Shown here in pieces: positions 2,960 to 57,749 of a stretch of 64,000 nt of DNA; the stretch's first letter is position 1, and every line of letters begins with the position of its first letter. The translations under genes were made by a program, and so were the position numbers. Under the pieces are notes generated by a model, which ran no database searches, was not told the DNA's origin, and was given only the letters and a program-made list of their open reading frames with translations. The stretch is from a virus, in the IMG/VR virus record IMGVR_UViG_3300027797_000013, positions 57,643 to 121,642 of that record; one strand, 5' to 3'.

Positions 2960-3575
2960 ATACTCTACCTCCTACCTTACAAACTGCTCTTACTTGTTCT
3001 TCTGTAAATATGACAGGGTCATAGCCAGGACGAGCTCGTTGATTACTGCATATAAAGTCATTTCTAACTTCCTTTGGAGCTTCTGTTAAATCACTAAGTA
3101 AATTATTCGAGCAGTTAAAACTTCCTCCAACCGTTTTTGGAGAGCCTCTAAGGGTTGTGAGATTGTTATACCCGCATAGATAATGACCATCTTTGTCTGA
3201 GAGATACCCCCATCCATCGGCGGATGGAGACGCTTCAATAATAGTAGGCCCGAAATCAAGATTTTTAAGCATATTGTACCTACAATCGAAATCCCCGATA
3301 ACTCTGGATGGTGAATGATTAAGTGAGGATATTTTATTGTATCGTATATCTACAGAACCGCCTATAATACTAGGTATACCTTCTAAAGAGATTAGCTTAT
3401 TATCCTTACAGCTAAATGAACCAGTCACTTCAGCAGGAGCATTCTTGAGAGTTCTAAGTTGGTTTTCACTAGCAAAGAACCCTCCTTTAACTATTAAGCC
3501 ATTAAGAAACTCAGGTAGCTCCGTAATATAGAAACCTGATATATCAACCATACGCTCAATATATCTCTTAGACAT
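2952..3575 (-). CDS. 21-residue-repeat (LRR-like) paralog 2
   Basis: Start chosen at 3575 because it gives the family N-terminus MSKRYIE; an upstream in-frame ATG at 3614 would lengthen the overlap with the PcfJ-domain gene and add an unrelated leader. About seven 21-residue repeats follow, one broken by an insertion rich in Gly/Ser/Asp (around residues 120-135), then the cap FTEEQVRAVCKVGGRVYV. It overlaps the end of the PcfJ gene by 8 bp, implying a coupled late operon PcfJ - paralog 2 - paralog 1. Function unknown. Confidence 0.85.
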   Translation of the reverse strand: MSKRYIERMVDISGFYITELPEFLNGLIVKGGFFASENQLRTLKNAPAEVTGSFSCKDNKLISLEGIPSIIGGSVDIRYNKISSLNHSPSRVIGDFDCRYNMLKNLDFGPTIIEASPSADGWGYLSDKDGHYLCGYNNLTTLRGSPKTVGGSFNCSNNLLSDLTEAPKEVRNDFICSNQRARPGYDPVIFTEEQVRAVCKVGGRVYV

Positions 3576-9288: not shown

Positions 9289-9653
9289 ATAGATATAAAA
9301 TGTATATAAAAAGAAGAAAAATATAATGTTTTTAAAGAAAAATAATTAAATTAAAAAAATAAAGGGAGCTTGCTAATAGAAGTAGGTCAAGATAATAGGC
9401 TTGTCTTGCTAATAGACGCGTGTATGTGTATATAAGAGGAAATATAATGTAACTATATGTAAAGCATAAAAGAGTGTAGAGAGACCATGAGAGAACCAAA
9501 AGAACACATAAGAGAAGATATCGAGCATATAGAAGAGAGAAGGATATAAGGAGAAGGATGATAAGAGTGTATTGTGGAGTATGGAGTAGTTCGTATTTAT
9601 AGCAAAGAGATAAAATATACGAAATAGAGAAATACAAGAGAAATATATTAAAT
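9289..9653. other. Non-coding divide between divergent late and early blocks
   Basis: About 365 bp with no convincing gene. The + strand is strongly purine-biased (AGA/GAA-rich). A 12-bp direct repeat CTTGCTAATAGA occurs at 9369-9380 and 9405-9416, and the related word GCTAATAGAAGTA also occurs at 8598. Long minus-strand open frames here have Phe/Leu/Tyr-rich low-complexity translations and look like by-products of the base skew. It could hold an origin, a regulatory region or a transcript leader; nothing decides between these. Confidence 0.5.
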
Positions 9654-9671
9654 AACGAACTACGATAAAAT
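9654..9671 (+). promoter_or_regulatory. Early promoter, N5 before ATG 9677
   Basis: AACGAACTACGA followed by TAAAAT as -10, then 5 nt to the ATG. Weaker -10 than the later copies. Confidence 0.65.
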
Positions 9672-9676
9672 AAAAT

Positions 9677-9970
9677 ATGAGCTTAGATAAAGCAATTGAA
9701 TTTGGAAAGGAGAAAAGAAAGCAATATAGAAAGAGCAAAGCTTTCGATCGCACTTGCCGCAATCACGGATCCTGTCCCTGGTGCGAAGGAAATAGAACAT
9801 ATCAAGCTCGCAAAGAGCATAAGAGAATTCAGAGTTCAGAGAAAGAAGAAGAGTATGAAGAGATTACAGAACCTAAAAAGTCTAGAAATTACGAGATTCC
9901 CCCATTATGGAAATTATTGAGACCTGAAGAGTCTGATGGCTCCGAGTATGGACCTTTTCAGACATACTAG
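9677..9970 (+). CDS. Small conserved phage protein with CxxHxxCxxC cluster
   Basis: 97 residues. The N-terminal half is highly basic and contains C27-R-N-H30-G-S-C33-P-W-C36-E-G-N-R-T, a compact potential zinc-binding knuckle. From memory this N-terminal half (MSLDKAI-x-x-GKEKRK...RTCRNHGSCPWC) recurs in many large phages, but no function is known to me. The C-terminal half is acidic and repetitive, and its coding DNA resembles the direct repeats just downstream. It is the first gene of the plus-strand early array, behind an early promoter at N5. Confidence 0.8.
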   Translation: MSLDKAIEFGKEKRKQYRKSKAFDRTCRNHGSCPWCEGNRTYQARKEHKRIQSSEKEEEYEEITEPKKSRNYEIPPLWKLLRPEESDGSEYGPFQTY

Positions 9971-10005
9971 AAACCTGGAAAATTTCCATACACAGACAGT
10001 CTCGA

Positions 10006-10094
10006 AATTACTAGAATGGAGTCAACCTGAAAATTATCAGACCCGCGTCATTATGGTAATTACTAGAATGGAGTCAACCTGAAAATTATCAGAC
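10006..10094 (+). repeat. Pair of 37-bp direct repeats
   Basis: Identical 37-bp copies at 10006-10042 and 10058-10094, starting AATTACTAGAATGG and ending TTATCAGAC, with a 15-bp spacer. A diverged relative occurs within the 3' end of the preceding gene (around 9903-9935, ATTATGGAAATTATTGAGACCTGAA). The block lies immediately upstream of the tRNA-fMet promoter. Two copies only, so not a CRISPR array. Confidence 0.8.
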
Positions 10095-10104
10095 AGAAGG
10101 TAAT

Positions 10105-10122
10105 AACGAACTCCGATATAAT
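10105..10122 (+). promoter_or_regulatory. Early promoter driving tRNA-fMet
   Basis: Full motif AACGAACTCCGA + TATAAT (10117-10122), followed by GATGGAGTAGAGAGTAAC, the leader type seen at four other early genes. No ORF follows; the tRNA begins 27 nt after the -10. Confidence 0.8.
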
Positions 10123-10149
10123 GATGGAGTAGAGAGTAACAAATAATTT

Positions 10150-10224
10150 AGCAGAGTGGAGCAGTGGTAGCTCGTTAGGCTCATAACCTAAAGGTCGTTG
10201 GTTCGAACCCAACCTCTGCAACCA
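10150..10224 (+). tRNA. Initiator tRNA-fMet (CAU), CCA encoded
   Basis: A 75-nt cloverleaf with anticodon CAU. It follows the E. coli initiator tRNA almost word for word: GTGGAGCAG, TGGTAGCTCGT, GGCTCATAACC, AAGGTCGT and GCAACCA. Initiator marks are the unpaired first position (A1 opposite A72, where E. coli has C1/A72) and the A11-U24 pair in the D-stem (GAGC/GCTC). The anticodon stem is TTAGG/CCTAA, so only two of the three G-C pairs typical of bacterial initiators remain. The CCA end is encoded. An elongator or Ile2 identity is unlikely given the 1-72 mismatch and A11-U24. Confidence 0.9.
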
Positions 10225-10231
10225 ATCTTTT

Positions 10232-10249
10232 AACGAACTCCGATATAAT
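10232..10249 (+). promoter_or_regulatory. Early promoter upstream of ATG 10279
   Basis: AACGAACTCCGA + TATAAT (10244-10249), 8 nt after the end of tRNA-fMet. Here the ATG is 29 nt downstream, so this transcript would have a short leader. Confidence 0.75.
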
Positions 10250-10278
10250 AAGTTGTCGGCAATAACCTTATCTTCTAT

Positions 10279-10530
10279 ATGACCAACTCTACTATCATCG
10301 CTGCTCTCAATGCTACCGAAGATCCTGCACTTGACAATATCATTATAGGTATGGCAGATATTGAATGTGGGTTCGGTTCTTACGAAAAGGCGGTACGGTA
10401 TGCTGCTTCTAGAAGCACGTATGAAGAGGTAATGAAGCTTCGAGATGCGTACGAGAAGCTAGCAGAGACGATGCAGCACGTAGCTACTGTTAAGCAGATA
10501 CTATTCCGAGATGGTAATAACGAACTCTGA
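10279..10530 (+). CDS. Small early protein, unknown
   Basis: 83 residues, moderately acidic and predicted helical, with no motif I recognise. The C-terminal NNEL and the TGA stop are encoded by the next early promoter itself: the stop at 10528-10530 is the CTGATATAAT part of that element. So the reading frame ends inside a regulatory site and the last residues are probably unconstrained. Expressed from the promoter just after tRNA-fMet. Confidence 0.65.
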   Translation: MTNSTIIAALNATEDPALDNIIIGMADIECGFGSYEKAVRYAASRSTYEEVMKLRDAYEKLAETMQHVATVKQILFRDGNNEL

Positions 10531-10536
10531 TATAAT
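10519..10536 (+). promoter_or_regulatory. Early promoter upstream of ATG 10566
   Basis: AACGAACTCTGA + TATAAT (10531-10536), then the GGAGTAGAGAGTAAC leader. Contains the stop codon of the preceding gene. Confidence 0.75.
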
Positions 10537-10565
10537 AATGGAGTAGAGAGTAACCAAAACCTAAT

Positions 10566-10940
10566 ATGCGAACATTCGAAGAAATCAAAGCTAGCATGAA
10601 GAATCGTAAGCCTACGATCTTTAGTGAGATCGCTGAAAACGAACTCCGATATAATAAGGGAGTAAAGAGTAAAACTACTATGCGAACCTTCGAAGAAATT
10701 CTTGATAGTATCAAAGACATCGATCTAATGTTCGATGACGAATTGATCAATAAGTTCATTAACGAAAGAGATGATCATTCGACGGCGAATCTATATAATC
10801 TACTCAAAGCGGGATCGTTGAATGAGGATGATATTTGTGACTTAGATGAAAATGATGTTCGGAATATCGTTGATTATGTTAACGTTCGATATGATATTGA
10901 TTTGAAAGTAGTCGGTTGTAAAGTGATATGGAATAGTTAA
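10566..10940 (+). CDS. Early protein with duplicated N-terminus; internal start at 10680
   Basis: The long form is 124 residues. Residues 1-10 (MRTFEEIKAS) recur at residues 39-48 (MRTFEEILDS), and a complete early promoter (10638-10655) lies between the copies, read through in frame as N-E-L-R-Y-N. The simplest reading is a tandem duplication in which the first copy lost its stop. The 86-residue form starting at 10680, directly downstream of the internal promoter, is probably the main product. The C-terminal part is acidic and Asp-rich. No known family recognised. Confidence 0.6.
   Translation: MRTFEEIKASMKNRKPTIFSEIAENELRYNKGVKSKTTMRTFEEILDSIKDIDLMFDDELINKFINERDDHSTANLYNLLKAGSLNEDDICDLDENDVRNIVDYVNVRYDIDLKVVGCKVIWNS
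10638..10655 (+). promoter_or_regulatory. Early promoter inside the 10566-10940 frame
   Basis: AACGAACTCCGA + TATAAT (10650-10655), then AAGGGAGTAAAGAG leader and ATG at 10680. Supports 10680 as a true start. Confidence 0.75.
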
Positions 10941-10956
10941 CGAACTCCGATATAAT
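10939..10956 (+). promoter_or_regulatory. Early promoter upstream of ATG 10989
   Basis: AACGAACTCCGA + TATAAT (10951-10956) with the GGAGTAGAGAG leader. Its first two bases are part of the TAA stop of the previous gene. Confidence 0.75.
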
Positions 10957-10988
10957 AATGGAGTAGAGAGTATTAAAACTAATATATA

Positions 10989-11419: not shown

Positions 11420-11428
11420 GAGGCAAAA

Positions 11429-11444
11429 GGAACTCCGATATAAT
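11429..11444 (+). promoter_or_regulatory. Early promoter, N5 before ATG 11450
   Basis: GGAACTCCGA + TATAAT, then AAGGT and ATG. Confidence 0.8.
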
Positions 11445-11449
11445 AAGGT

Positions 11450-11629
11450 ATGACGATTACAGAACTAATTAACAAACTGCAGCAATTGAAAATGGAAAGC
11501 GGCGACATTAACGTACTTACTTATGATGAAAGTGAAGGTGCTTTTAATGTCGTTCAAAGTGCCTTTCTTTCATATCCTGATTCAGATGACGATGAAGGGA
11601 TCGTGCCAACTGGAGTAATTCTTCAATAA
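11450..11629 (+). CDS. 59-residue early protein (MTITEL family, copy A)
   Basis: Short gene whose N-terminus MTITELINKLQQL and middle DESEGAF are shared with a same-length gene at 15560-15739, so the two are paralogs at opposite ends of the early array. The pattern (short amphipathic helix, then strands) resembles small phage proteins that begin T-I-x-E-L-I-x-x-L and describe themselves as hypothetical. Early promoter at N5. Function unknown. Confidence 0.7.
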   Translation: MTITELINKLQQLKMESGDINVLTYDESEGAFNVVQSAFLSYPDSDDDEGIVPTGVILQ

Positions 11630-11645
11630 GGAACTTCAATATAAT
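11630..11645 (+). promoter_or_regulatory. Early promoter upstream of ATG 11691
   Basis: GGAACTTCAA + TATAAT, followed by an AATAGAGTAGAGACTAAC leader; ATG 45 nt downstream. One of the leadered early transcripts. Confidence 0.7.
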
Positions 11646-11690
11646 AATAGAGTAGAGACTAACAAACAAACAATTAATCTAATCAATCAT

Positions 11691-12074
11691 ATGGCTTATC
11701 AATCTAAATACAAAGGCGTCCTCGTTCATCCTTCTGATAAAGACACACTGAACACTCTCCGTGCGCTAGCCCCTAGCCTTACTGAGGCAGATATGATGCA
11801 GTTCTTTATCAATAGTGTTGATAAAGAATCATTTACCGCTTTCCTCGTTGAAGAGGAGACTCGTAACTTCCTCAAGAAGAACGATAAGAAAGAGGCTTCC
11901 GCTAAGCCTGCTAAGAAAGCAGCTAAGGCCGAGACGGTTGATAAGCCGGTCAAAGAGAAGAAGGTAAAGAAGGTCAAAGAGCCTGTGTTCGTAGCGACAG
12001 AAGAAGAGACTGATAAGGTTCGCGAACTGCACGATAAAGACGAGCCTGCTATTCGCGTAGTGGTAGGCTGCTAG
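11691..12074 (+). CDS. Lys/Ala-rich early protein with histone-like tail
   Basis: 127 residues. The N-terminal domain (about 1-65) is mixed and possibly helical. The middle (about 68-100) is a Lys/Ala/Pro tract with repeated K-K-A, K-P-V-K and K-K-V-K, like nucleoid-associated or H1-like tails. The end is acidic, then hydrophobic (IRVVVGC). A DNA- or RNA-binding role is plausible from composition only. It has a longer leader than its neighbours. Confidence 0.65.
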   Translation: MAYQSKYKGVLVHPSDKDTLNTLRALAPSLTEADMMQFFINSVDKESFTAFLVEEETRNFLKKNDKKEASAKPAKKAAKAETVDKPVKEKKVKKVKEPVFVATEEETDKVRELHDKDEPAIRVVVGC

Positions 12075-12079
12075 CATAA

Positions 12080-12095
12080 GGAACTCCGATATAAT
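12080..12095 (+). promoter_or_regulatory. Early promoter, N5 before ATG 12101
   Basis: GGAACTCCGA + TATAAT, AAGGT, ATG. Confidence 0.8.
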
Positions 12096-12100
12096 AAGGT

Positions 12101-12265
12101 ATGAATACGACCCCAACTGAAGACGCAGTTAAGATCGCGCTGTTGCGCAAGACGCTAGAAGACTTGATCGGTGAGTGGGGCGGTCAAGTTGTCGATCCTA
12201 ACTGCGACTGTGAGGACTGCAATCATCTGCGCCCTCTGTATAGAGCGCTTGAAGCGACAAAGTAA
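12101..12265 (+). CDS. 54-residue early protein with C-x-C-x-x-C cluster
   Basis: Short gene fixed by the promoter at its start. Residues 35-40 read C-D-C-E-D-C followed by N-H, a compact metal-binding-like cluster in an otherwise helical, mildly charged protein. No family recognised. The stop is 1 nt before the next early promoter, so each gene in this stretch is a separate promoter-gene unit. Confidence 0.65.
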   Translation: MNTTPTEDAVKIALLRKTLEDLIGEWGGQVVDPNCDCEDCNHLRPLYRALEATK

Positions 12266-12266
12266 A

Positions 12267-12282
12267 GGAACTCCGATATAAT
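12267..12282 (+). promoter_or_regulatory. Early promoter, N5 before ATG 12288
   Basis: GGAACTCCGA + TATAAT, AAGGT, ATG. Confidence 0.8.
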
Positions 12283-12287
12283 AAGGT

Positions 12288-12494
12288 ATGAAGACACAAC
12301 AAGAGATCAAGGAGACTAGAGAGTACATCAAAGATACAGTGCAGTTCAAGATTAAGGTTGCTAAGGCTAATGAGTGGTTCGAACGCAACTTCAAATTGTC
12401 TGATGACGCTGACGAAGGTCGACACATCTGCGAGCGGTACTGCGAAGAGATCAAAGCCCTTCACGAGCTCTACCGTTACGAAAAAGGTCTATAA
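12288..12494 (+). CDS. Early helical protein (EWFE family, short copy)
   Basis: 68 residues, highly charged and helical. The segment ANEWFERNFKLSDDADEG and the following ICERYCEEIKALHELY are clearly related to the same region of the next gene (ATEWFEKNFKQSESAEEG, VCERYLAEMKALHDHY). So the two are tandem paralogs, the second with a C-terminal extension. Function unknown. Confidence 0.7.
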   Translation: MKTQQEIKETREYIKDTVQFKIKVAKANEWFERNFKLSDDADEGRHICERYCEEIKALHELYRYEKGL

Positions 12495-12507
12495 TTATAT
12501 TACTACA

Positions 12508-12951
12508 ATGTCCTATATCGACAATGCAATCGATCTCTCTGCCGACGTCACGAGAGCTACTGAGTGGTTCGAGAAGAACTTCAAGCAGTCAGAAAGCGCT
12601 GAAGAAGGTACGCGAGTATGTGAACGGTACCTCGCTGAGATGAAAGCTCTTCACGATCACTATGTTACAAAGGTTGAAACATATAAAAACAATTGTGAAT
12701 ACTATACCGACAAGCCACGCATTACCGTTGACAATGTCAACTACGATTGGGACGGTTGGGCTGACGCCTATCTAGGTCCAACTACTCCATCTGGTATATA
12801 TGGTGCACGAGAAGAGGAAGATGGTAAATGGCGACCAGCGGTATACCGTCCAACCGAATACGATGCCGAATTATCATTTGAATCATTCGACACACCTCAC
12901 TCTGCTATTAAAAGATCACTCGCTTACTTCGCAAAAGGAACTTCGATATAA
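12508..12951 (+). CDS. Early protein (EWFE family, long copy)
   Basis: 147 residues from the ATG at 12508; an upstream in-frame ATG at 12358 would run through the preceding gene in another frame and is rejected. Residues about 13-50 match the previous gene. The C-terminal extension is Tyr/Trp-rich (DWDGWADAY, PAVYRPTEY). No early promoter of its own, so it is cotranscribed with 12288-12494. Its TAA stop lies inside the TATAAT of the next promoter (12937-12952). Confidence 0.68.
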   Translation: MSYIDNAIDLSADVTRATEWFEKNFKQSESAEEGTRVCERYLAEMKALHDHYVTKVETYKNNCEYYTDKPRITVDNVNYDWDGWADAYLGPTTPSGIYGAREEEDGKWRPAVYRPTEYDAELSFESFDTPHSAIKRSLAYFAKGTSI

Positions 12952-12952
12952 T
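12937..12952 (+). promoter_or_regulatory. Early promoter upstream of tRNA-like gene
   Basis: GGAACTTCGA + TATAAT, 45 nt before the tRNA-like gene. Contains the stop codon of the preceding gene. Confidence 0.7.
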
Positions 12953-12996
12953 AATGTTGTCAGAGATTGAAAGATACGTTTGACATAAAAACAAAC

Positions 12997-13073
12997 GGCT
13001 CGTTAGCTTAATGGCAAAAGCGTCTTAGATGGTGACATCTAAGGAGATGAAGGTTCGATTCCTTCCCGACCCT
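12997..13073 (+). tRNA. tRNA-like gene with abnormal anticodon arm
   Basis: Acceptor GGCTCGT / CCGACCC pairs at 5 of 7 positions, with C-C and T-C mismatches. The D-arm is GCTT-AAGC with AATGGCAA loop, and the T-arm GAAGG-TTCGATT-CCTTC is canonical. Between D- and T-arms are 27 nt, 4-5 more than normal. They form an over-long stem, CTTAGAT / ATCTAAG (13024-13043), with a 6-nt loop GGTGAC. No standard 7-nt anticodon loop with U33 is visible and no CCA is encoded. The overall shape resembles tRNA-Lys of E. coli. It could be a decayed tRNA, a tRNA mimic or a tRNA-derived regulatory RNA. It has its own early promoter. Confidence 0.6.
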
Positions 13074-13139
13074 GCTTTCAACGTAGGATGAACATCCGAA
13101 CAACGAGGCGTCAGAATACGCCTACAAGACACAACTTTA

Positions 13140-13155
13140 GGAACTCCGGTATAAT
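13140..13155 (+). promoter_or_regulatory. Early promoter, N6 before ATG 13162
   Basis: GGAACTCCGG + TATAAT, AATAGT, ATG. Confidence 0.8.
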
Positions 13156-13161
13156 AATAGT

Positions 13162-13506
13162 ATGACCAACGACGAATTCATCAAAGACACCATCGAGTAC
13201 TACTGCACAGACTCTGACCGCATCGCATATCCAGGTCCAATGTACAAGTGTGGTGGTCGCTTCTGCGCCGTTGGTCGGTGGATTAAGCCTGAGAAGTACT
13301 GTAACGCAATGGAGTGCAGTCCTAACGTAGAGGAGCTGCTCCAAATATATCCTGACTGCTTGATGGATGAAGTGAGTAGTGTTGATGTAGAGGTACTCTC
13401 TGTGATGCAGCAGATGCACGATGTAGTGTTGTCCAGTATTTATTCAACTGAGCAGAATCGACAAAAGGCAAAGGTGTTCCTCGAACGCCGCGGCATCACA
13501 ATCTAA
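13162..13506 (+). CDS. Early protein, Cys-containing, unknown
   Basis: 114 residues. It contains M-Y-K-C-G-G-R-F-C-A-V-G-R-W (about residues 27-41) and further Cys at about 47 and 53, then a helical C-terminal half. The sequence C-G-G-R-F-C-A-V-G resembles phage proteins annotated only as hypothetical. Own early promoter at N6 and its stop is 1 nt before the next promoter. Confidence 0.68.
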   Translation: MTNDEFIKDTIEYYCTDSDRIAYPGPMYKCGGRFCAVGRWIKPEKYCNAMECSPNVEELLQIYPDCLMDEVSSVDVEVLSVMQQMHDVVLSSIYSTEQNRQKAKVFLERRGITI

Positions 13507-13507
13507 A

Positions 13508-13523
13508 GGAACTCCGATATAAT
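13508..13523 (+). promoter_or_regulatory. Early promoter, N5 before ATG 13529
   Basis: GGAACTCCGA + TATAAT, AAGGT, ATG. Confidence 0.8.
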
Positions 13524-13528
13524 AAGGT

Positions 13529-13894
13529 ATGAACATTAACGATCTAACAGATGCAGAGCTGATTGAAGTCAAAGAGGCTTGGGAAGGAGTAAACAAAGGA
13601 CAGTACCATGCATGGACCCATACACGCGCTGATGGCTGGGATGACTTCGATGTAGCGAGAGCTTATCCTGAGTGGTGCTTCGCTGATAATCCCGAGCGGA
13701 TGCTCAATACATACCCACACTGGGTAGCAATCAATCAACCTGAATTCGCGTTCGAACGTGAGCCAAAGACAGTAGCTGTAGACAATAACCGTTGGGTAAA
13801 AGAGAACAGGCCCGAGTACTACGCAGAGTATAGGAAGGCGATGCGCTTAGCAGGTTATGTACCACATAACGGAATGGGCATCGAAGAGCTGTAA
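13529..13894 (+). CDS. Trp/Tyr-rich early protein, unknown
   Basis: 121 residues, unusually rich in aromatic residues (AWEG, YHAWTH, DGWDDF, YPEWCF, YPHWV, NNRWVKENRPEYYAEYRKA). No motif that I can link to a function. A T-rich remnant resembling the hairpin at 20.7 kb (CAAGGCGGGTCGTTTGTTT, 13898-13916) follows the stop. Confidence 0.68.
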   Translation: MNINDLTDAELIEVKEAWEGVNKGQYHAWTHTRADGWDDFDVARAYPEWCFADNPERMLNTYPHWVAINQPEFAFEREPKTVAVDNNRWVKENRPEYYAEYRKAMRLAGYVPHNGMGIEEL

Positions 13895-13916
13895 CCAAGG
13901 CGGGTCGTTTGTTTAA

Positions 13917-13932
13917 GGAACTCCGATATAAT
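13917..13932 (+). promoter_or_regulatory. Early promoter, N5 before ATG 13938
   Basis: GGAACTCCGA + TATAAT, AAGGT, ATG. Confidence 0.8.
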
Positions 13933-13937
13933 AAGGT

Positions 13938-14126
13938 ATGACCGAAACTGAATACAACGAAATTGCTGCTGAAATCTTTGAATCTGCTATGTGGACTATT
14001 AAGTTTACATTAGATGCTAAGAAGTCATCAGATGAAGAAAAGCTAAGTCAAATTAAAACAATCGTCAGCGGAGCCTTCAAACGCATCGCAGAAGAAGAAC
14101 TCAATATGCTGTGCGACGAAGAATAA
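13938..14126 (+). CDS. Small acidic helical early protein, unknown
   Basis: 62 residues, rich in Glu and Ala, likely one or two amphipathic helices; ends C-D-E-E. The stop codon abuts the next promoter. No family recognised. Confidence 0.65.
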   Translation: MTETEYNEIAAEIFESAMWTIKFTLDAKKSSDEEKLSQIKTIVSGAFKRIAEEELNMLCDEE

Positions 14127-14143
14127 ACGAACTCCGATATAAT
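14126..14143 (+). promoter_or_regulatory. Early promoter, N6 before ATG 14150
   Basis: AACGAACTCCGA + TATAAT, AATAAT, ATG. Overlaps the last base of the preceding stop. Confidence 0.8.
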
Positions 14144-14149
14144 AATAAT

Positions 14150-14362
14150 ATGCACAATGTATCTGTTGGTGACATCTTTATGGATTCAAATGAAGTCTTT
14201 CGTGTGATAGAAGTTCTAGAAAACGAGAAGTTTCCTGAAGATCCACTCATCGAAGTTGAAGTGTGTATGAGTGGTCCCGGGCGCGAGGGCTTGGGCGACT
14301 GGAGCTTCACTCTCGAACAAGCAGAAAAGTACAACCTGCAGCACTACAAAGCTGCCAAGTAA
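14150..14362 (+). CDS. Early protein of the MHN-SV family (copy A)
   Basis: 70 residues from ATG 14150; a frame open upstream to 14111 only reads through the promoter as N-E-L-R-Y-N-N. MHNVSVGDIF ... FRVIEVLEN...PEDPLIEVE is clearly related to the minus-strand gene at 26102-26272 (MHNISVNDVF ... MRVIEVINN...PNDPILHIE). Both start behind an N6 early promoter with the same spacer. A small beta-rich domain is likely; function unknown. Confidence 0.72.
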   Translation: MHNVSVGDIFMDSNEVFRVIEVLENEKFPEDPLIEVEVCMSGPGREGLGDWSFTLEQAEKYNLQHYKAAK

Positions 14363-14379
14363 ACGAACTCCAATATAAT
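14362..14379 (+). promoter_or_regulatory. Early promoter, N6 before ATG 14386
   Basis: AACGAACTCCAA + TATAAT, AATAAT, ATG. Confidence 0.8.
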
Positions 14380-14385
14380 AATAAT

Positions 14386-14637
14386 ATGACACAATCAATC
14401 AACTCCTTCGACCTTACTCCAAACGAGCACATCGCTCTTGACAATATTACTGCAAAGCTGCTCGATGATGTCAATGTCGATATCAAAGAAGCCTTCGAAG
14501 TAGTCCAGGCCATTACTCAATCAGAAGGACTGACTGTAGAAGAGGTAATCAAGTTCCTCACAGAGAGCCTATTCATGGACCTCGAAGTAAGCCCTGATGG
14601 TATGACGTTTAAGGCTAACGATGTGCATGATGTATAG
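14386..14637 (+). CDS. Acidic early protein, unknown
   Basis: 83 residues from ATG 14386, which follows the promoter at N6; the longer frame from 14263 is a read-through of promoter sequence. Mostly helical and acidic (DDVNVDIKEAFEVV, EEVIKFLTESLFMD). Its stop TAG overlaps a downstream ATG (ATGTATAG), a translational-coupling arrangement. Confidence 0.68.
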   Translation: MTQSINSFDLTPNEHIALDNITAKLLDDVNVDIKEAFEVVQAITQSEGLTVEEVIKFLTESLFMDLEVSPDGMTFKANDVHDV

Positions 14638-14818
14638 TTCTATTCACGTAAAGGTTCTTCCTAAGAAAATAGATTATAGCTCTTCGACAATAGAGTGTGA
14701 AGCACGCCGTCTTCTATACATTGACGATAGAACTATAGAGTACTGTCAAAAGACCACGACCACCCACCCACTACCTCCGGTATATGACTACTGCAGAGAA
14801 GATAGCGATCTTGGATAA
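14630..14818 (+). CDS. Possible small coupled gene, unknown
   Basis: 62 residues from the ATG that overlaps the preceding stop. Basic/Tyr/Ser-rich (KVLPKKIDYSSSTIECEARRLLYIDD). No promoter motif upstream, and its end overlaps the next gene by 35 bp in another frame. It fills an otherwise empty 146-bp gap, which is the main argument for it. Confidence 0.4.
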   Translation: MYSSIHVKVLPKKIDYSSSTIECEARRLLYIDDRTIEYCQKTTTTHPLPPVYDYCREDSDLG

Positions 14819-15026
14819 GGAGTATGCCGATGCCAAGATCGTTGTCAATAAGACCATAGAGACCTTCTGTGGTCTGAATTCAGCTGAATCGTTGGCAGTG
14901 CGCAGGCTGTTCCAGACAGAGAGAGCACTAGATGGTCTGCTAAAGGCTCTCAGAGAGCGTCACATTAGTAATCCGGACATAGAATGGATCATTGGTGTAG
15001 CAGAAGACATCCGCTACCTAGAGTAA
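14784..15026 (+). CDS. Helical early protein, unknown
   Basis: 80 residues, predicted all-helical (EKIAILDKEYADAKIVVNKT, LRERHISNPDIEWI). The upstream sequence CTACCTCCGGTAT resembles a shortened early promoter but lacks a full TATAAT, so expression may come mainly from read-through. No family recognised. Confidence 0.6.
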   Translation: MTTAEKIAILDKEYADAKIVVNKTIETFCGLNSAESLAVRRLFQTERALDGLLKALRERHISNPDIEWIIGVAEDIRYLE

Positions 15027-15042
15027 GGAACTCCGATACAAT
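15027..15042 (+). promoter_or_regulatory. Early promoter, N5 before ATG 15048
   Basis: GGAACTCCGA + TACAAT (one change from TATAAT), AAGGT, ATG. Confidence 0.75.
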
Positions 15043-15047
15043 AAGGT

Positions 15048-15332
15048 ATGACCGACGAACTCAAAACAAACCAAACGTGGGCCGAAATTTCAGCTCTGCG
15101 TACAGAAGCCAATATCAAGTCCGCTGCTGCGCACAGAGCTTGGCTTCGGTCTACTGTAGACCTCAACACTCTCGGACAAAACGAGCAGGTGGTGAAGGAA
15201 GTAAATGATAAGCGAGCTGCTGCCTATGCTGAGTATAAGCGCTGTCACGATGAGGCCTTTAGAATCTCGCAGATAGCCAACTCCTTGTATAGAGATATGG
15301 CAGGTTCAGATGATCATCTGTTTAACAAATAG
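15048..15332 (+). CDS. Helical early protein, unknown
   Basis: 94 residues, Ala/Arg/Glu-rich and probably a coiled or bundled helix throughout (NIKSAAAHRAWLRSTV, DKRAAAYAEYKRCHDEAF). No recognised family. Confidence 0.67.
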   Translation: MTDELKTNQTWAEISALRTEANIKSAAAHRAWLRSTVDLNTLGQNEQVVKEVNDKRAAAYAEYKRCHDEAFRISQIANSLYRDMAGSDDHLFNK

Positions 15333-15340
15333 ACCAGTAA

Positions 15341-15356
15341 GGAACTCCGATATAAT
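15341..15356 (+). promoter_or_regulatory. Early promoter, N6 before ATG 15363
   Basis: GGAACTCCGA + TATAAT, AATAGT, ATG. Confidence 0.8.
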
Positions 15357-15362
15357 AATAGT

Positions 15363-15533
15363 ATGACCGACATTACTAAATTCACTGCTGCAGAGCTGGC
15401 TCGTATCGAAGCATACGACGCTGACCTTCTTATGCTCAAAGGTTGGGCATCTAATCTCGAAGAGGCTACACAGATGGCCCGAGCCACTCTCTGTAAACGC
15501 TTTGGTGTTAAACAAATGCCTAACCAAGACTAG
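15363..15533 (+). CDS. 56-residue early protein, unknown
   Basis: Short gene defined by the promoter at its start and a stop just before the next promoter. Helical, Ala-rich (TAAELARIEAYDADLLMLKG, EEATQMARATLCKRFGV). No family recognised. Confidence 0.65.
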   Translation: MTDITKFTAAELARIEAYDADLLMLKGWASNLEEATQMARATLCKRFGVKQMPNQD

Positions 15534-15537
15534 TAAA

Positions 15538-15553
15538 GGAACTCCGATATAAT
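15538..15553 (+). promoter_or_regulatory. Early promoter, N6 before ATG 15560
   Basis: GGAACTCCGA + TATAAT, AATAGT, ATG. Confidence 0.8.
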
Positions 15554-15559
15554 AATAGT

Positions 15560-20659: not shown

Positions 20660-20665
20660 ACTATT

Positions 20666-20683
20666 ATTATATCGGAGTTCGTT
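20666..20683 (-). promoter_or_regulatory. Early promoter, N6 before ATG 20659
   Basis: AACGAACTCCGA + TATAAT, AATAGT, ATG on the minus strand. Confidence 0.8.
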
Positions 20684-27592: not shown

Positions 27593-28897
27593 TTATTCAG
27601 CTCCGTGCTTTTCCTCGTCTAGCATTTTAGTTTCAAGTCCAAGGAATTCAAGATCTTTTAATTTTAAAGCATTCCACTTTAAAGGTACTTCTTTGTTAAC
27701 AACGATACCTTCCATAGGAACATCTTTAGTGCATAATGGATCTCTCTTACCTAGAAACTCCTCGGATAGACTCTTAACAAAATTACTACTCCATTCACTA
27801 TCTTGAGGAATATCATACAGATCTTTAGCTAGCCCGTGGTAGTAACCGTAAACCGTTTTCAATCCTTTCATCTTGCAGTACTCTACCACTTGCGGAAACG
27901 TAAACGTAAAGCTCTCGCCATCGACATTAACATAGTCAATCTTGAAAATTAAGAACTCATTGTTACCTGGAGTTAAACCATAGTCGTAGTCTGGCTGAAT
28001 CAACTTCATACCATCATAGCCAATGATCTCTCCAGTCACTCGAATACCTTTATCCAGGAGGGGATAGATTCGCTCTGCAACATCACTCCAAGCATTTTTC
28101 TGTTCGCTTGAGTTAAAGTTGACACCATCTTTAGAATGACCCTCAGCATTTCGTACAACAGTTCTACTAGAGTAGATCATACCATATTCTTTTTCTACTA
28201 CTTTAACTTTAAAGAATTTGGCAATCTTTTCTACCCAGGAAAGCGGACGATTAACGAGAATATTTGCGACAATGCAATTACAGCCATGAAACTTATTCGT
28301 AATAGAGATGCAATCATTTGGATTTAAATCAAAAGCTCTAGTACGCAAGTTCTCGGTATCGCCATGGAATGCAAACTGATGATCAAGTAGTCTCTTGAAC
28401 TTAGGCTTAGACTCTTTCTGACCTTTCTCTCGCGCTTTCATAACCTTCGGAACGTACTTGCTGATAAAAATATCACCACACACGCTATCGAACTTGCGAC
28501 CAATTACACCATAAGACATATACACACCATACTCTTCTGAAACAAACAATTCAAAAGAACTAAAAGGTACGACGTAACCGTCACTATAAATTCCTCGCAG
28601 CTTAATCATACGAACCCGACCATTAGAGCCGAAGAATCCTTTCTGAGTAATATCCTTATTTAACGCGCAGTCGGAATAAGCGTTCGACCATCGTAGAAAC
28701 TTTTCTGAGAGCTGAGACTCAACAGGAAAGTAGACGTACACTTCACCCTTCTTCGCCTCGAGTCCAACAACAATCTTTGTATTTAGCACTTCAGCTACTT
28801 GTAATTTATCAGCATTAGGGTGCACGTTGACAGATTCTAGCTCCACAATACGAGCCAGATAATTTGGATTTGCATTCTCAGAGATTGAAAGACACAT
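27593..28897 (-). CDS. RNA ligase, Rnl5/DraRnl-like
   Basis: 434 residues. N-terminal OB-type domain (about 10-115), with ESVNVHPNADKLQVAEV like the tRNA-binding/OB module of D. radiodurans-type RNA ligases. The nucleotidyltransferase domain has motif I K202-F-H-G-C-N (the K-x-H/D-G adenylation site), motif IV E-G-I-V-V (about 399-403) and motif V L-K-L-K (about 412). Such ligases seal 3'-OH/5'-phosphate nicks in RNA. With eight tRNA or tRNA-like genes nearby and a cREC protein at 39.7 kb, repair of cleaved tRNAs is a plausible job; that is inference. No early motif is seen at its start. Confidence 0.85.
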   Translation of the reverse strand: MCLSISENANPNYLARIVELESVNVHPNADKLQVAEVLNTKIVVGLEAKKGEVYVYFPVESQLSEKFLRWSNAYSDCALNKDITQKGFFGSNGRVRMIKLRGIYSDGYVVPFSSFELFVSEEYGVYMSYGVIGRKFDSVCGDIFISKYVPKVMKAREKGQKESKPKFKRLLDHQFAFHGDTENLRTRAFDLNPNDCISITNKFHGCNCIVANILVNRPLSWVEKIAKFFKVKVVEKEYGMIYSSRTVVRNAEGHSKDGVNFNSSEQKNAWSDVAERIYPLLDKGIRVTGEIIGYDGMKLIQPDYDYGLTPGNNEFLIFKIDYVNVDGESFTFTFPQVVEYCKMKGLKTVYGYYHGLAKDLYDIPQDSEWSSNFVKSLSEEFLGKRDPLCTKDVPMEGIVVNKEVPLKWNALKLKDLEFLGLETKMLDEEKHGAE

Positions 28898-30302: not shown

Positions 30303-30320
30303 ATTATATTAGAGTTCGTT
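30303..30320 (-). promoter_or_regulatory. Early promoter, N6 before ATG 30296
   Basis: AACGAACTCTAA + TATAAT, AATAAT, ATG on the minus strand. Overlaps the end of the tilS-like gene. Confidence 0.78.
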
Positions 30321-30953
30321 AACGGTATTGTAAAACTTTTTGGCTACGATTTTTGGGAGACCGAATTGTTTAAACATTGGCAGGATCTCATTTCGAACCC
30401 AGTTACGTCTATACGTGTTGTCCTTATTGGTCTCATCCTCTACAATATATGAGGTGAGTTTGTTGTGCACGGTATAATTTACAAAATCTTCCTTTTTAGT
30501 TCTCATAAAAGGTCTAATGAGCATTTTTGGCTTAATTAGTTTACAGTTGTCTAAAGGAGTAAGAGTAGGTACAGGTACATACTCAGGACATCCTCTTAGC
30601 ATATTCATTACGTAGCCTTCAACCGCATCTCCGTTATGATGACAACATACTACATCACTGTATAGAGATTTAAAAAAATCCATTCTTTCCTCTCTTAAGG
30701 CATCTTCGCTCTTGGTCCAAAAAGCACCACGCGTACCAACTACGCATTCAGTAGAAAAATGATGACAAAACACTTCTACCATCTCTTGCATAGTATGATT
30801 TTGTTGTCTCAAATTATGATTAAAGTGAGCTACTTTGACTCGATCTCCGTAAAGTCTAATTAAGAGATGAGCTGCTGCGATACTGTCCACTCCACCAGAT
30901 ACAGCGACGTAGAACTCGCCGCTAGGAATCAATGAACGATCTAATTTAATCAT
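30309..30953 (-). CDS. tilS: tRNA(Ile)-lysidine synthase-like N-type ATP pyrophosphatase
   Basis: TilS changes C34 of tRNA-Ile2(CAU) to lysidine so that it reads AUA and is charged with Ile. The 214-residue protein has the PP-loop S19-G-G-V-D-S24, H43-F-N-H-N-L-R49, and the C-terminal E-D-E-T-N...R-R-N-x-V-R-N-E-I-L-P block (about 171-190) that marks TilS. It stops there, so it holds only the catalytic domain and lacks the C-terminal tRNA-recognition domains of E. coli TilS (432 residues). Two tRNA-Ile2(CAU) genes are in this window, one 0.8 kb upstream. Early promoter at N5. Confidence 0.85.
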   Translation of the reverse strand: MIKLDRSLIPSGEFYVAVSGGVDSIAAAHLLIRLYGDRVKVAHFNHNLRQQNHTMQEMVEVFCHHFSTECVVGTRGAFWTKSEDALREERMDFFKSLYSDVVCCHHNGDAVEGYVMNMLRGCPEYVPVPTLTPLDNCKLIKPKMLIRPFMRTKKEDFVNYTVHNKLTSYIVEDETNKDNTYRRNWVRNEILPMFKQFGLPKIVAKKFYNTVNEL

Positions 30954-31785: not shown

Positions 31786-31861
31786 TGGTAGGCCGTATTG
31801 GATTCGAACCAATGACCAAGGGATTATGAGTCCCCTGCTCTTACCGCTGAGCTAACAGCCT
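31786..31861 (-). tRNA. tRNA-Ile2 (CAU), CCA encoded, copy A
   Basis: 76 nt. Acceptor AGGCTGT / ACGGCCT (one T-G pair), D-arm GCTC/GAGC, anticodon loop ACTCATAATC with CAU, T-arm ATTGG-TTCGAAT-CCAAT, A plus CCA. The blocks GAGCAGG-GACTCATAATC-CTTGGTC match E. coli ileX far better than elongator tRNA-Met, so this is taken as the lysidine-modified AUA decoder. A tilS-like gene lies just downstream. Confidence 0.88.
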
Positions 31862-36775: not shown

Positions 36776-36851
36776 TGGTAGGCCGTGTTGGATTCGAACC
36801 AACGACCAAGGGATTATGAGTCCCCTGCTCTTACCGCTGAGCTAACGGCCT
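36776..36851 (-). tRNA. tRNA-Ile2 (CAU), CCA encoded, copy B
   Basis: 76 nt, nearly identical to the copy at 31786. The differences keep pairing: acceptor AGGCCGT / ACGGCCT is fully paired, and the T-stem is GTTGG/CCAAC instead of ATTGG/CCAAT. Anticodon loop ACTCATAATC. Short flanks (AAATTG...TGGTAGGCC) are also shared, suggesting duplication of the gene with its surroundings. Confidence 0.88.
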
Positions 36852-36863
36852 ATTTTGAAAATT

Positions 36864-36940
36864 TGGTGCACCTAGTTGGATTCGAACCAACGACCGACGG
36901 ATTCATTTGTCCGCTGCTCTATCCGCCGAGCTACAGGTAC
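36864..36940 (-). tRNA. tRNA with 8-nt anticodon loop lacking U33
   Basis: 77 nt with CCA. Acceptor GTACCTG / TAGGTGC (with two G-U pairs), D-arm GCTC/GAGC, T-arm GTTGG-TTCGAAT-CCAAC. The anticodon stem GCGGA/TCCGT closes an 8-nt loop CAAATGAA. A normal 7-nt loop with U at position 33 cannot be drawn, so the anticodon is undefined (AAA, AAT or ATG, depending on register). Everything else looks functional. Confidence 0.72.
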
Positions 36941-39676: not shown

Positions 39677-40213
39677 TTAGATTATACTTAGAATCTCACT
39701 AGACTTATTAATAGCTAATTCGTCACTAGTATTGTATGCAATAAGTTTATCTTCTTCGAGAATATCAATAATATTAGCAGTTCCTTGCTTGTTTAAACTA
39801 TGAACTGCATACTTAGGAAGATCCCTACCTTCATTTATACACTTAGCCTTTAGGTAAATCGCACAATCACGTCCGGTCCTTTCCTTTACTTTACTATAAT
39901 TGTACTCTGTTTTATTGCTAAGACTTAGGACACATTCATAGGAAGCAGACCTATCAAGGTCATGATCAAACGAGATAAAATCATATGTTTTTTCGTCTAA
40001 TGCTTTTGTGAATTGTTCAAAATCTCTCACAATTTCCCATTCGTAAGATGTATAATCAATATTCATCCAGCATACATCACGTGGCCACCTTTGATCATCA
40101 AGAAATAGATTCTTTTGATTCTTTTTAAAGATTACATCGTAGTTGGAATTGTACTTATTAGTGTCCACTTTACGTGGAAAAGATCCTTTACCACCGCTCC
40201 ATTCGCCTTTCAT
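39677..40213 (-). CDS. cREC (cyclic-phosphate-processing receiver-type) domain protein
   Basis: 178 residues. L-F-L-D-D-Q-R-W-P (about 36-44), S-F-D-H-D-L (about 80-85), T-G-R-D-C-A and V-H-S-L-N-K-Q-G form the pattern of the cREC family, receiver-like domains predicted to work with RNA end-processing enzymes on cyclic phosphates. With an RNA ligase in the same phage, a role in RNA end repair is a reasonable guess. Family assignment is from memory of the motifs. Confidence 0.65.
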   Translation of the reverse strand: MKGEWSGGKGSFPRKVDTNKYNSNYDVIFKKNQKNLFLDDQRWPRDVCWMNIDYTSYEWEIVRDFEQFTKALDEKTYDFISFDHDLDRSASYECVLSLSNKTEYNYSKVKERTGRDCAIYLKAKCINEGRDLPKYAVHSLNKQGTANIIDILEEDKLIAYNTSDELAINKSSEILSII

Positions 40214-57368: not shown

Positions 57369-57749
57369 ATGAACCCAATAGGACTATCTCAAAATCTTGT
57401 AAATGCTCTACCAAGTTTAGCTAGAACTAGGTATGAAAATATCTTCAAGGTTTTTAAAGTATTAAAGGATAAAGATAATAGTTATTATCTCTATAACATA
57501 AACAATAAAGTCATAATACCAGATAATCTTGATAACAATGTTTACAGTACCATCACAATTTCACGTAACACAGCTTGGACTACACTCTCTTATAAGTTAT
57601 ATGGTACTATAGATCTATGGTGGTTAATATTTCTTATTAACAAGCCTAAGGATATATTTTTAGCGCGAAGCGGTGAATCATATAAGTATATTAAACCAAT
57701 ATTTATAGACAGTGTGTTAACTAACATAGAGCAACAGATAAATGCATGA
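57369..57749 (+). CDS. Baseplate wedge protein, T4 gp53-like (LysM-type)
   Basis: 126 residues. W-T-T-L-S-Y-K-L-Y-G-T-I-D-L-W-W-L-I-F-L-I-N (about 74-95) is the LysM-like W-x-x-L-S-x-x-x-Y-G-x-x-x-x-W-W pattern seen in gp53-type wedge proteins. Its stop overlaps the following start by 4 bp. Confidence 0.75.
   Translation: MNPIGLSQNLVNALPSLARTRYENIFKVFKVLKDKDNSYYLYNINNKVIIPDNLDNNVYSTITISRNTAWTTLSYKLYGTIDLWWLIFLINKPKDIFLARSGESYKYIKPIFIDSVLTNIEQQINA

Follow-up and report, generated by a model that had tools for sequence, protein, structure and literature searches.

A phage initiator-type tRNA-Met gene in a genome with leaderless-looking gene starts

The usual account of phage tRNAs, codon use in elongation, does not fit an initiator tRNA, because an initiator tRNA serves the start codon only. 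What, then, does such a gene do for a phage, and is it tied to the leaderless-looking genes around it? We addressed these questions at a locus in the window, the whole 64,000-nucleotide stretch analysed here, which spans positions 57643 to 121642 of a 121,642-base virus record (G000:C1). Its terminase and tail sheath affiliate this environmental virus with T4-like myoviruses, and the nearest annotated phages share <40% terminase identity. The locus comprises the following features, in window coordinates.

9677-9970, + strand: upstream neighbour, a 97-aa ORF with CRNHGSCPWCEGNR and a leaderless-type start, its ATG 5 nt past a promoter copy
10105-10124, + strand: promoter copy AACGAACTCCGATATAATGA before the tRNA, 1 mismatch to the motif, TATAAT at 10117-10122
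10129-10149, + strand: putative leader at the 5' end of the precursor tRNA and RNase P substrate, placed by the usual distance from TATAAT to the start
10150-10224, + strand: initiator-type tRNA-Met(CAU), 75 nt including CCA, supported by ARAGORN, Rfam, a feature parse, the fold and an ortholog in the phage G269
10232-10251, + strand: next promoter copy, 7 nt past the CCA, an exact match to the motif and conserved beside the tRNA in G269
10279-10530, + strand: downstream ORF of 83 aa from the ORF list, with a leader of ~22 nt
11427-15555, + strand: block of promoter copies, mostly with ATG 5 to 6 nt past TATAAT; leaderless-looking, context only

Both ARAGORN and Rfam (RF00005, 64.3 bits, E 1.2e-11) called a tRNA-Met(CAU) at 10150-10224 (+), and both, together with the fold, place the CAU anticodon within a full cloverleaf. 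The cloverleaf is the minimum-free-energy structure, and pair 1:72 is open in it. The feature parse resolved an acceptor stem AGCAGAG/CTCTGCA with A1 opposite A72 and unpaired, followed by G2:C71, C3:G70 and A4:U69, with discriminator A73 and an encoded CCA; a D stem GAGC/GCTC in which A11:U24 gives R11:Y24 instead of Y11:R24; an anticodon arm UUAGG-CUCAUAA-CCUAA with A29:U41, G30:C40 and G31:C39; and a T arm GUUGG-UUCGAAC-CCAAC. Compared to E. coli sequences, the tRNA is identical to tRNA-fMet at 61 of 77 positions (79%), to elongator tRNA-Met at 48/80 and to tRNA-Ile2 at 45/76 (59 to 60%). It shares with E. coli metZ-type tRNA-fMet the CAU anticodon, open 1:72, A11:U24, G30:C40, G31:C39, G2:C71, C3:G70 and A73; it differs in having A1xA72 (not C1xA72), A29:U41 (not G29:C41), A4:U69 and a 7-nt D loop, and in being encoded by a phage.

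Determinants of formylation by the formyltransferase include an open 1:72, R11:Y24, G2-C71, C3-G70 and A73 (PMC9976931). Among the minor transformylase determinants, A73, G2-C71 and C3-G70 are present here, and A4:U69 stands in place of G4-C69. The third G:C pair of the anticodon stem, G29:C41, which is usual but not defining, is absent, with A29:U41 at that position. An earlier, sequence-only reading had pointed to the unpaired A1xA72, the A11:U24 pair, the likeness to E. coli tRNA-fMet and an anticodon stem with two of three G-C pairs; the parse and alignment bore out every one of these features. As far as sequence goes, these data confirmed that 10150-10224 is a complete, well-formed initiator-type phage tRNA gene. 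Host assignment by tRNA similarity was tried and rejected, the best cellular matches being scattered over Bacteroidales, Opitutae, Pelagibacter and Ruminococcus.

The CAU anticodon, together with a TilS-like protein encoded by the phage, could also point to an elongator Met tRNA or a lysidine-bearing Ile2 tRNA. However, elongator tRNA-Met has a paired 1:72 and Y11:R24, and tRNA-Ile2 has a paired 1:72, C11:G24 and an Ile2-like body; the tRNA at 10150-10224 has neither set, with its open 1:72, its A11:U24 instead of C11:G24, and lower identity to the elongators than to tRNA-fMet. Instead, it is a pair of other CAU tRNAs in the window that fit the Ile2 profile, and an elongator identity for the initiator-type gene is very improbable.

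31786-31861 and 36776-36851, - strand: Ile2-like tRNA-CAU genes with paired 1:72 and C11:G24, 78 to 82% identical to Ile2
30309-30953, - strand: TilS-type lysidine synthetase of 214 aa (TIGR02432, 109.8 bits, cut-off 93.6)

TilS and the two Ile2-like tRNA-CAU genes make up a self-contained AUA-decoding set in a phage that uses ATA at 28.8 per 1000 codons; TilS is annotated also in PA5oct-like jumbo phages. Three further RNA elements lie in the window. The four-base-anticodon tRNA occurs also in G003 and is possibly frameshift-reading or altered, and no AbiF-like protein was recognised beside the abiF RNA.

12997-13073, + strand: tRNA-like match (38.1 bits), missed by ARAGORN, with a 12-nt stretch in place of the 7-nt anticodon loop
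20696-20732, - strand: abiF RNA (RF03085, 51 bits, gathering 37), shortly before a leaderless-type promoter (20664-20683)
36864-36940, - strand: tRNA with a four-base anticodon (aatg, ARAGORN)

We searched IMG/VR by pattern for the type with a 7-nt D loop, leaving the acceptor stem and positions 27 to 29 and 41 to 43 free and fixing pairs 30:40 and 31:39. This gave 78 stretches with 50 distinct initiator-type tRNAs, viral by IMG/VR classification, since the contigs may include prophages or host flanks. In this set, 1:72 is unpaired in 41/50, as CA, TT, AA, AC, CT and other mismatches, while pairs 2:71 to 7:66 are each formed in 46 to 50. Formylation calls for an open 1:72 of this kind, preserved although its letters change, and such an open first acceptor pair with varying letters is sequence evidence for retention of the viral tRNAs as initiators. 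Position 29:41 is paired in all 50, as G:C in 17 and otherwise in 33. Furthermore, a scan of cellular genome contigs gave at least 119 stretches in which an initiator has A or T at 29:41; the matches listed include Alphaproteobacteria, Bacteroidales, Verrucomicrobia, Saccharibacteria, Planctomycetes and others. Of 58 genomes sampled evenly from Alphaproteobacteria, the class to which a Pelagibacter genome belongs, 31 have this form. Since G29:C41 is thus absent from many cellular and viral initiators, A29:U41 is compatible with membership of the initiator class. We rejected the idea that the lack of a third G:C pair has particular significance, as the same form occurs in cellular initiators of several groups. 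The proposal that A29:U41 loosens IF3 discrimination is a reading that is not needed for a pair so ordinary, found in about half of the sampled Alphaproteobacteria; the pair may be no more than a trait of the donor or host.

Initiator tRNAs of phages were also known before. A listing within PMC4810235 names the tRNA-fMet of T5 (Chen et al. 1975), and cyanophage cases are cited in the same review; phiLM21-like Sinorhizobium prophages (PMC12429752) and the Erwinia jumbo phage pEa_SNUABM_47 (PMC7760394) also carry tRNA-fMet. These phages belong to other lineages and have an initiator tRNA in the genome, as here; the window gene differs from theirs in that it has a promoter copy to itself, stands apart from the main tRNA cluster and belongs to a genome that looks leaderless. 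BLAST searches of INPHARED matched 412 of 50,697 phage records with the E. coli fMet query and 168 of 50,697 with the window tRNA, mixed counts that include partial matches, elongators and host contamination. On parsing, tRNAs of the initiator type were verified in cr60_1, CcrColossus, GodonK, phiKX1, LoVEphage, AP1, XbC2, phi17:2 and LR756511, among others. As in the window gene, R11:Y24, two fixed G:C pairs and A:U or U:A at 29:41 are found in the crAss-like cr60_1, the huge phage LR756511, CcrColossus, GodonK and phiKX1, which vary in D-loop length, acceptor sequence and pair 1:72; LR756511 also has A1xA72. An initiator tRNA in a phage can therefore be called unusual, as had been stated, but with these matches and published cases it is not rare. 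Knowledge of phage tRNA-fMet goes back to T5 in 1975, and the window gene is an ordinary, well-supported further case.

The 20-nt promoter motif AACGAACTNCRATATAATAA occurs in 37 copies in the window (at most 3 mismatches), compared to 0.06 expected. The copies are spread over 9654-43892 on both strands, and the motif is found also in the rest of the record and in relatives; two copies precede the tRNA cluster at 36 to 37 kb. The copy before the initiator-type tRNA is of the type with a leader. It is a true match to the motif, so the tRNA does lie behind a promoter copy, whereas the label "early" attached to it comes from analogy with T4, and the class is at most putatively early. Among the neighbours, the product of the 10279-10530 ORF had no match in protein family searches, and the 9677-9970 ORF has homologs in 23 viral loci and in G269. 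Another viral contig, L480, has at 3001-3338 an initiator-type tRNA immediately preceded by a homolog of the small CRNHGxCPWCEGNR protein, an arrangement comparable to window 9677-10224; such a placement was seen in 1 of the 22 other loci checked.

Extending the tRNA search to phages with the same promoter motif turned up an ortholog in G269 (IMGVR_UViG_3300009181_000178, 36.7 kb), whose compared proteins are 32 to 68% identical to those of the window phage (TilS 55%, RadA 63%, head closure 68%). The ortholog, at 4019-3945 (-), is identical at 69 of 75 nt (92%). U28:A42 is changed to C28:G42, a compensatory replacement, and A29:U41 is kept; 27:43 is broken, and 1:72 is U:A, a weak pair that is not open. 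Window 10144-10265, comprising the tRNA and the next promoter, matches G269 4026-3905 with 88% identity along 123 nt, and the window ORFs 9677-9970 and 10566-10940 both have homologs near the tRNA. G269 also holds a second, degenerate initiator tRNA copy at ~6770-6699 (-) with a scrambled anticodon arm, which starts a few nt past TATAAT and is followed by the same promoter. In G003, the closest relative (terminase 96% identical), the same promoters are present and the genome aligns to window 9409-9877 and 10231-10972; between these segments, the tRNA is replaced by ~350 nt of unrelated sequence. Such a replacement implies that the gene is dispensable in G003, unless it sits within the unseen part of the genome. 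The simplest history would be that the tRNA was present in an ancestor common to G269 and then lost in G003. Aberrant CAU tRNA-like genes were also seen in G028 (C1xA72, odd D arm) and in G268.

The replacement in G003 and the degenerate copy in G269 would be expected of a passenger, an acquired tRNA cassette of little function that moves and decays with its promoter. Yet the intact copy is 92% conserved while the compared proteins share 32 to 68%, and it combines a compensatory stem change with retention of nearly all initiator features, which leaves a passive cassette a quite unlikely explanation. These data suggest that the tRNA has been kept by selection; the G269 ortholog speaks to its being kept, not to the purpose.

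One candidate purpose is leaderless translation. In the window, 24 of the 37 motif copies have an ATG 5 to 7 nt past TATAAT that begins an ORF of 30 codons or longer, which is the spacing expected for leaderless mRNA. Shine-Dalgarno sequences precede 11 of 134 predicted genes of the record, no enrichment over controls with 10 and 17. Moreover, a late-type box, [TC]TAAATA or TATAAATA, stands 5 nt (less often 6) before the ATG in ~20 genes; what supports these starts is the constant distance seen where genes are predicted to begin, as TATAAATA plus 5 nt plus ATG occurs by pattern alone 9 times in the window versus 5.8 expected (1 mismatch allowed), which is not significant. The leaderless-looking promoters noticed earlier are thus present, and the leaderless architecture looks broad and real in this genome. 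The leaderless-looking phage group, with its motif and late-type boxes found also in related phages, is probably of more interest than the tRNA.

The sequence-only reading had suggested that the tRNA and these promoters may form one system, with extra fMet-tRNA favouring the phage's leaderless transcripts; ribosomes would then be tilted toward these over host leadered mRNAs. The mechanism is plausible, since more fMet-tRNA enhances leaderless translation strongly and canonical translation mildly (review PMC9031893); the genome has the leaderless-type starts described above, and the tRNA and the promoter motif stay together in G269. On the other hand, the tRNA does not occur wherever the leaderless architecture does. 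G003 has the promoters and lacks the tRNA at the locus, and none of the 7 tRNAs detected in its incomplete record is of the initiator type. Late-type leaderless spacing is seen in G026 and G013 and, weakly, in the 110-kb G021; no tRNA was detected in these three incomplete records of larger and more distant relatives. Conversely, many G269 motif copies have leaders. A phage would also gain no selectivity over a host that itself uses no Shine-Dalgarno sequence. Because the relatives' records are incomplete and the tRNA may lie elsewhere in them, its absence weighs against coupling but stops short of exclusion. From G003, with promoters and no tRNA, and the tRNA-free leaderless-type relatives, it follows that the tRNA is useful yet unneeded for leaderless-looking expression. 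Nothing in the DNA demonstrates that tRNA and leaderless genes form one system, and we consider a dedicated leaderless role possible but unlikely.

Another candidate purpose is counter-defence, whereby the phage tRNA would replace a host initiator tRNA cut by a VapC-type nuclease, perhaps with help from a phage RNA ligase. VapC does cut initiator tRNA (PMC10264068), and the window encodes a ligase, which might form an RNA repair set with a second protein.

27593-28897, - strand: RNA ligase (phrog_968)
39677-40213, - strand: cyclic-phosphate processing receiver domain (PF20274)

However, the anticodon loop CTCATAA is standard, without an evading change, and phages generally avoid encoding the VapC target (PMC10264068). 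Counter-defence is accordingly an improbable account of the gene.

We consider it likely that this is a real bacterial-type phage initiator tRNA gene whose role is a general one, topping up the initiator pool, useful and non-essential. The sequence itself shows that the gene is there with its promoter motif, that it has the structure and determinants of an initiator, and that it is conserved in G269, a related phage. The tRNA would be transcribed during infection, its precursor trimmed by RNase P, and the product charged by host MetRS via the CAU anticodon and formylated by the host transformylase via open 1:72, G2:C71, C3:G70 and A73. Used in the P site, the formylated tRNA would enlarge the initiator supply of the infected cell, much as other phage tRNAs serve elongation, and would help all phage transcripts, leaderless ones included, without restriction to them. 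Points that argue against this reading are A4:U69 in place of G4:C69, the lack of the gene at the G003 locus, the degenerate second G269 copy and the U:A at 1:72 of the G269 ortholog. A peptide deformylase, a possible supporting partner, was not found in the virus record.

For the phage group, a broader proposal is that most genes are expressed leaderless and that in some members the initiator tRNA raises fMet-tRNA, turning ribosomes from host leadered mRNAs to the phage's leaderless ones; we regard this as unlikely overall. If true, the leaderless link would be a phage means of choosing the class of mRNA on which the ribosome starts. As for phage tRNAs in general, an initiator tRNA gene tests other reasons for their carriage.
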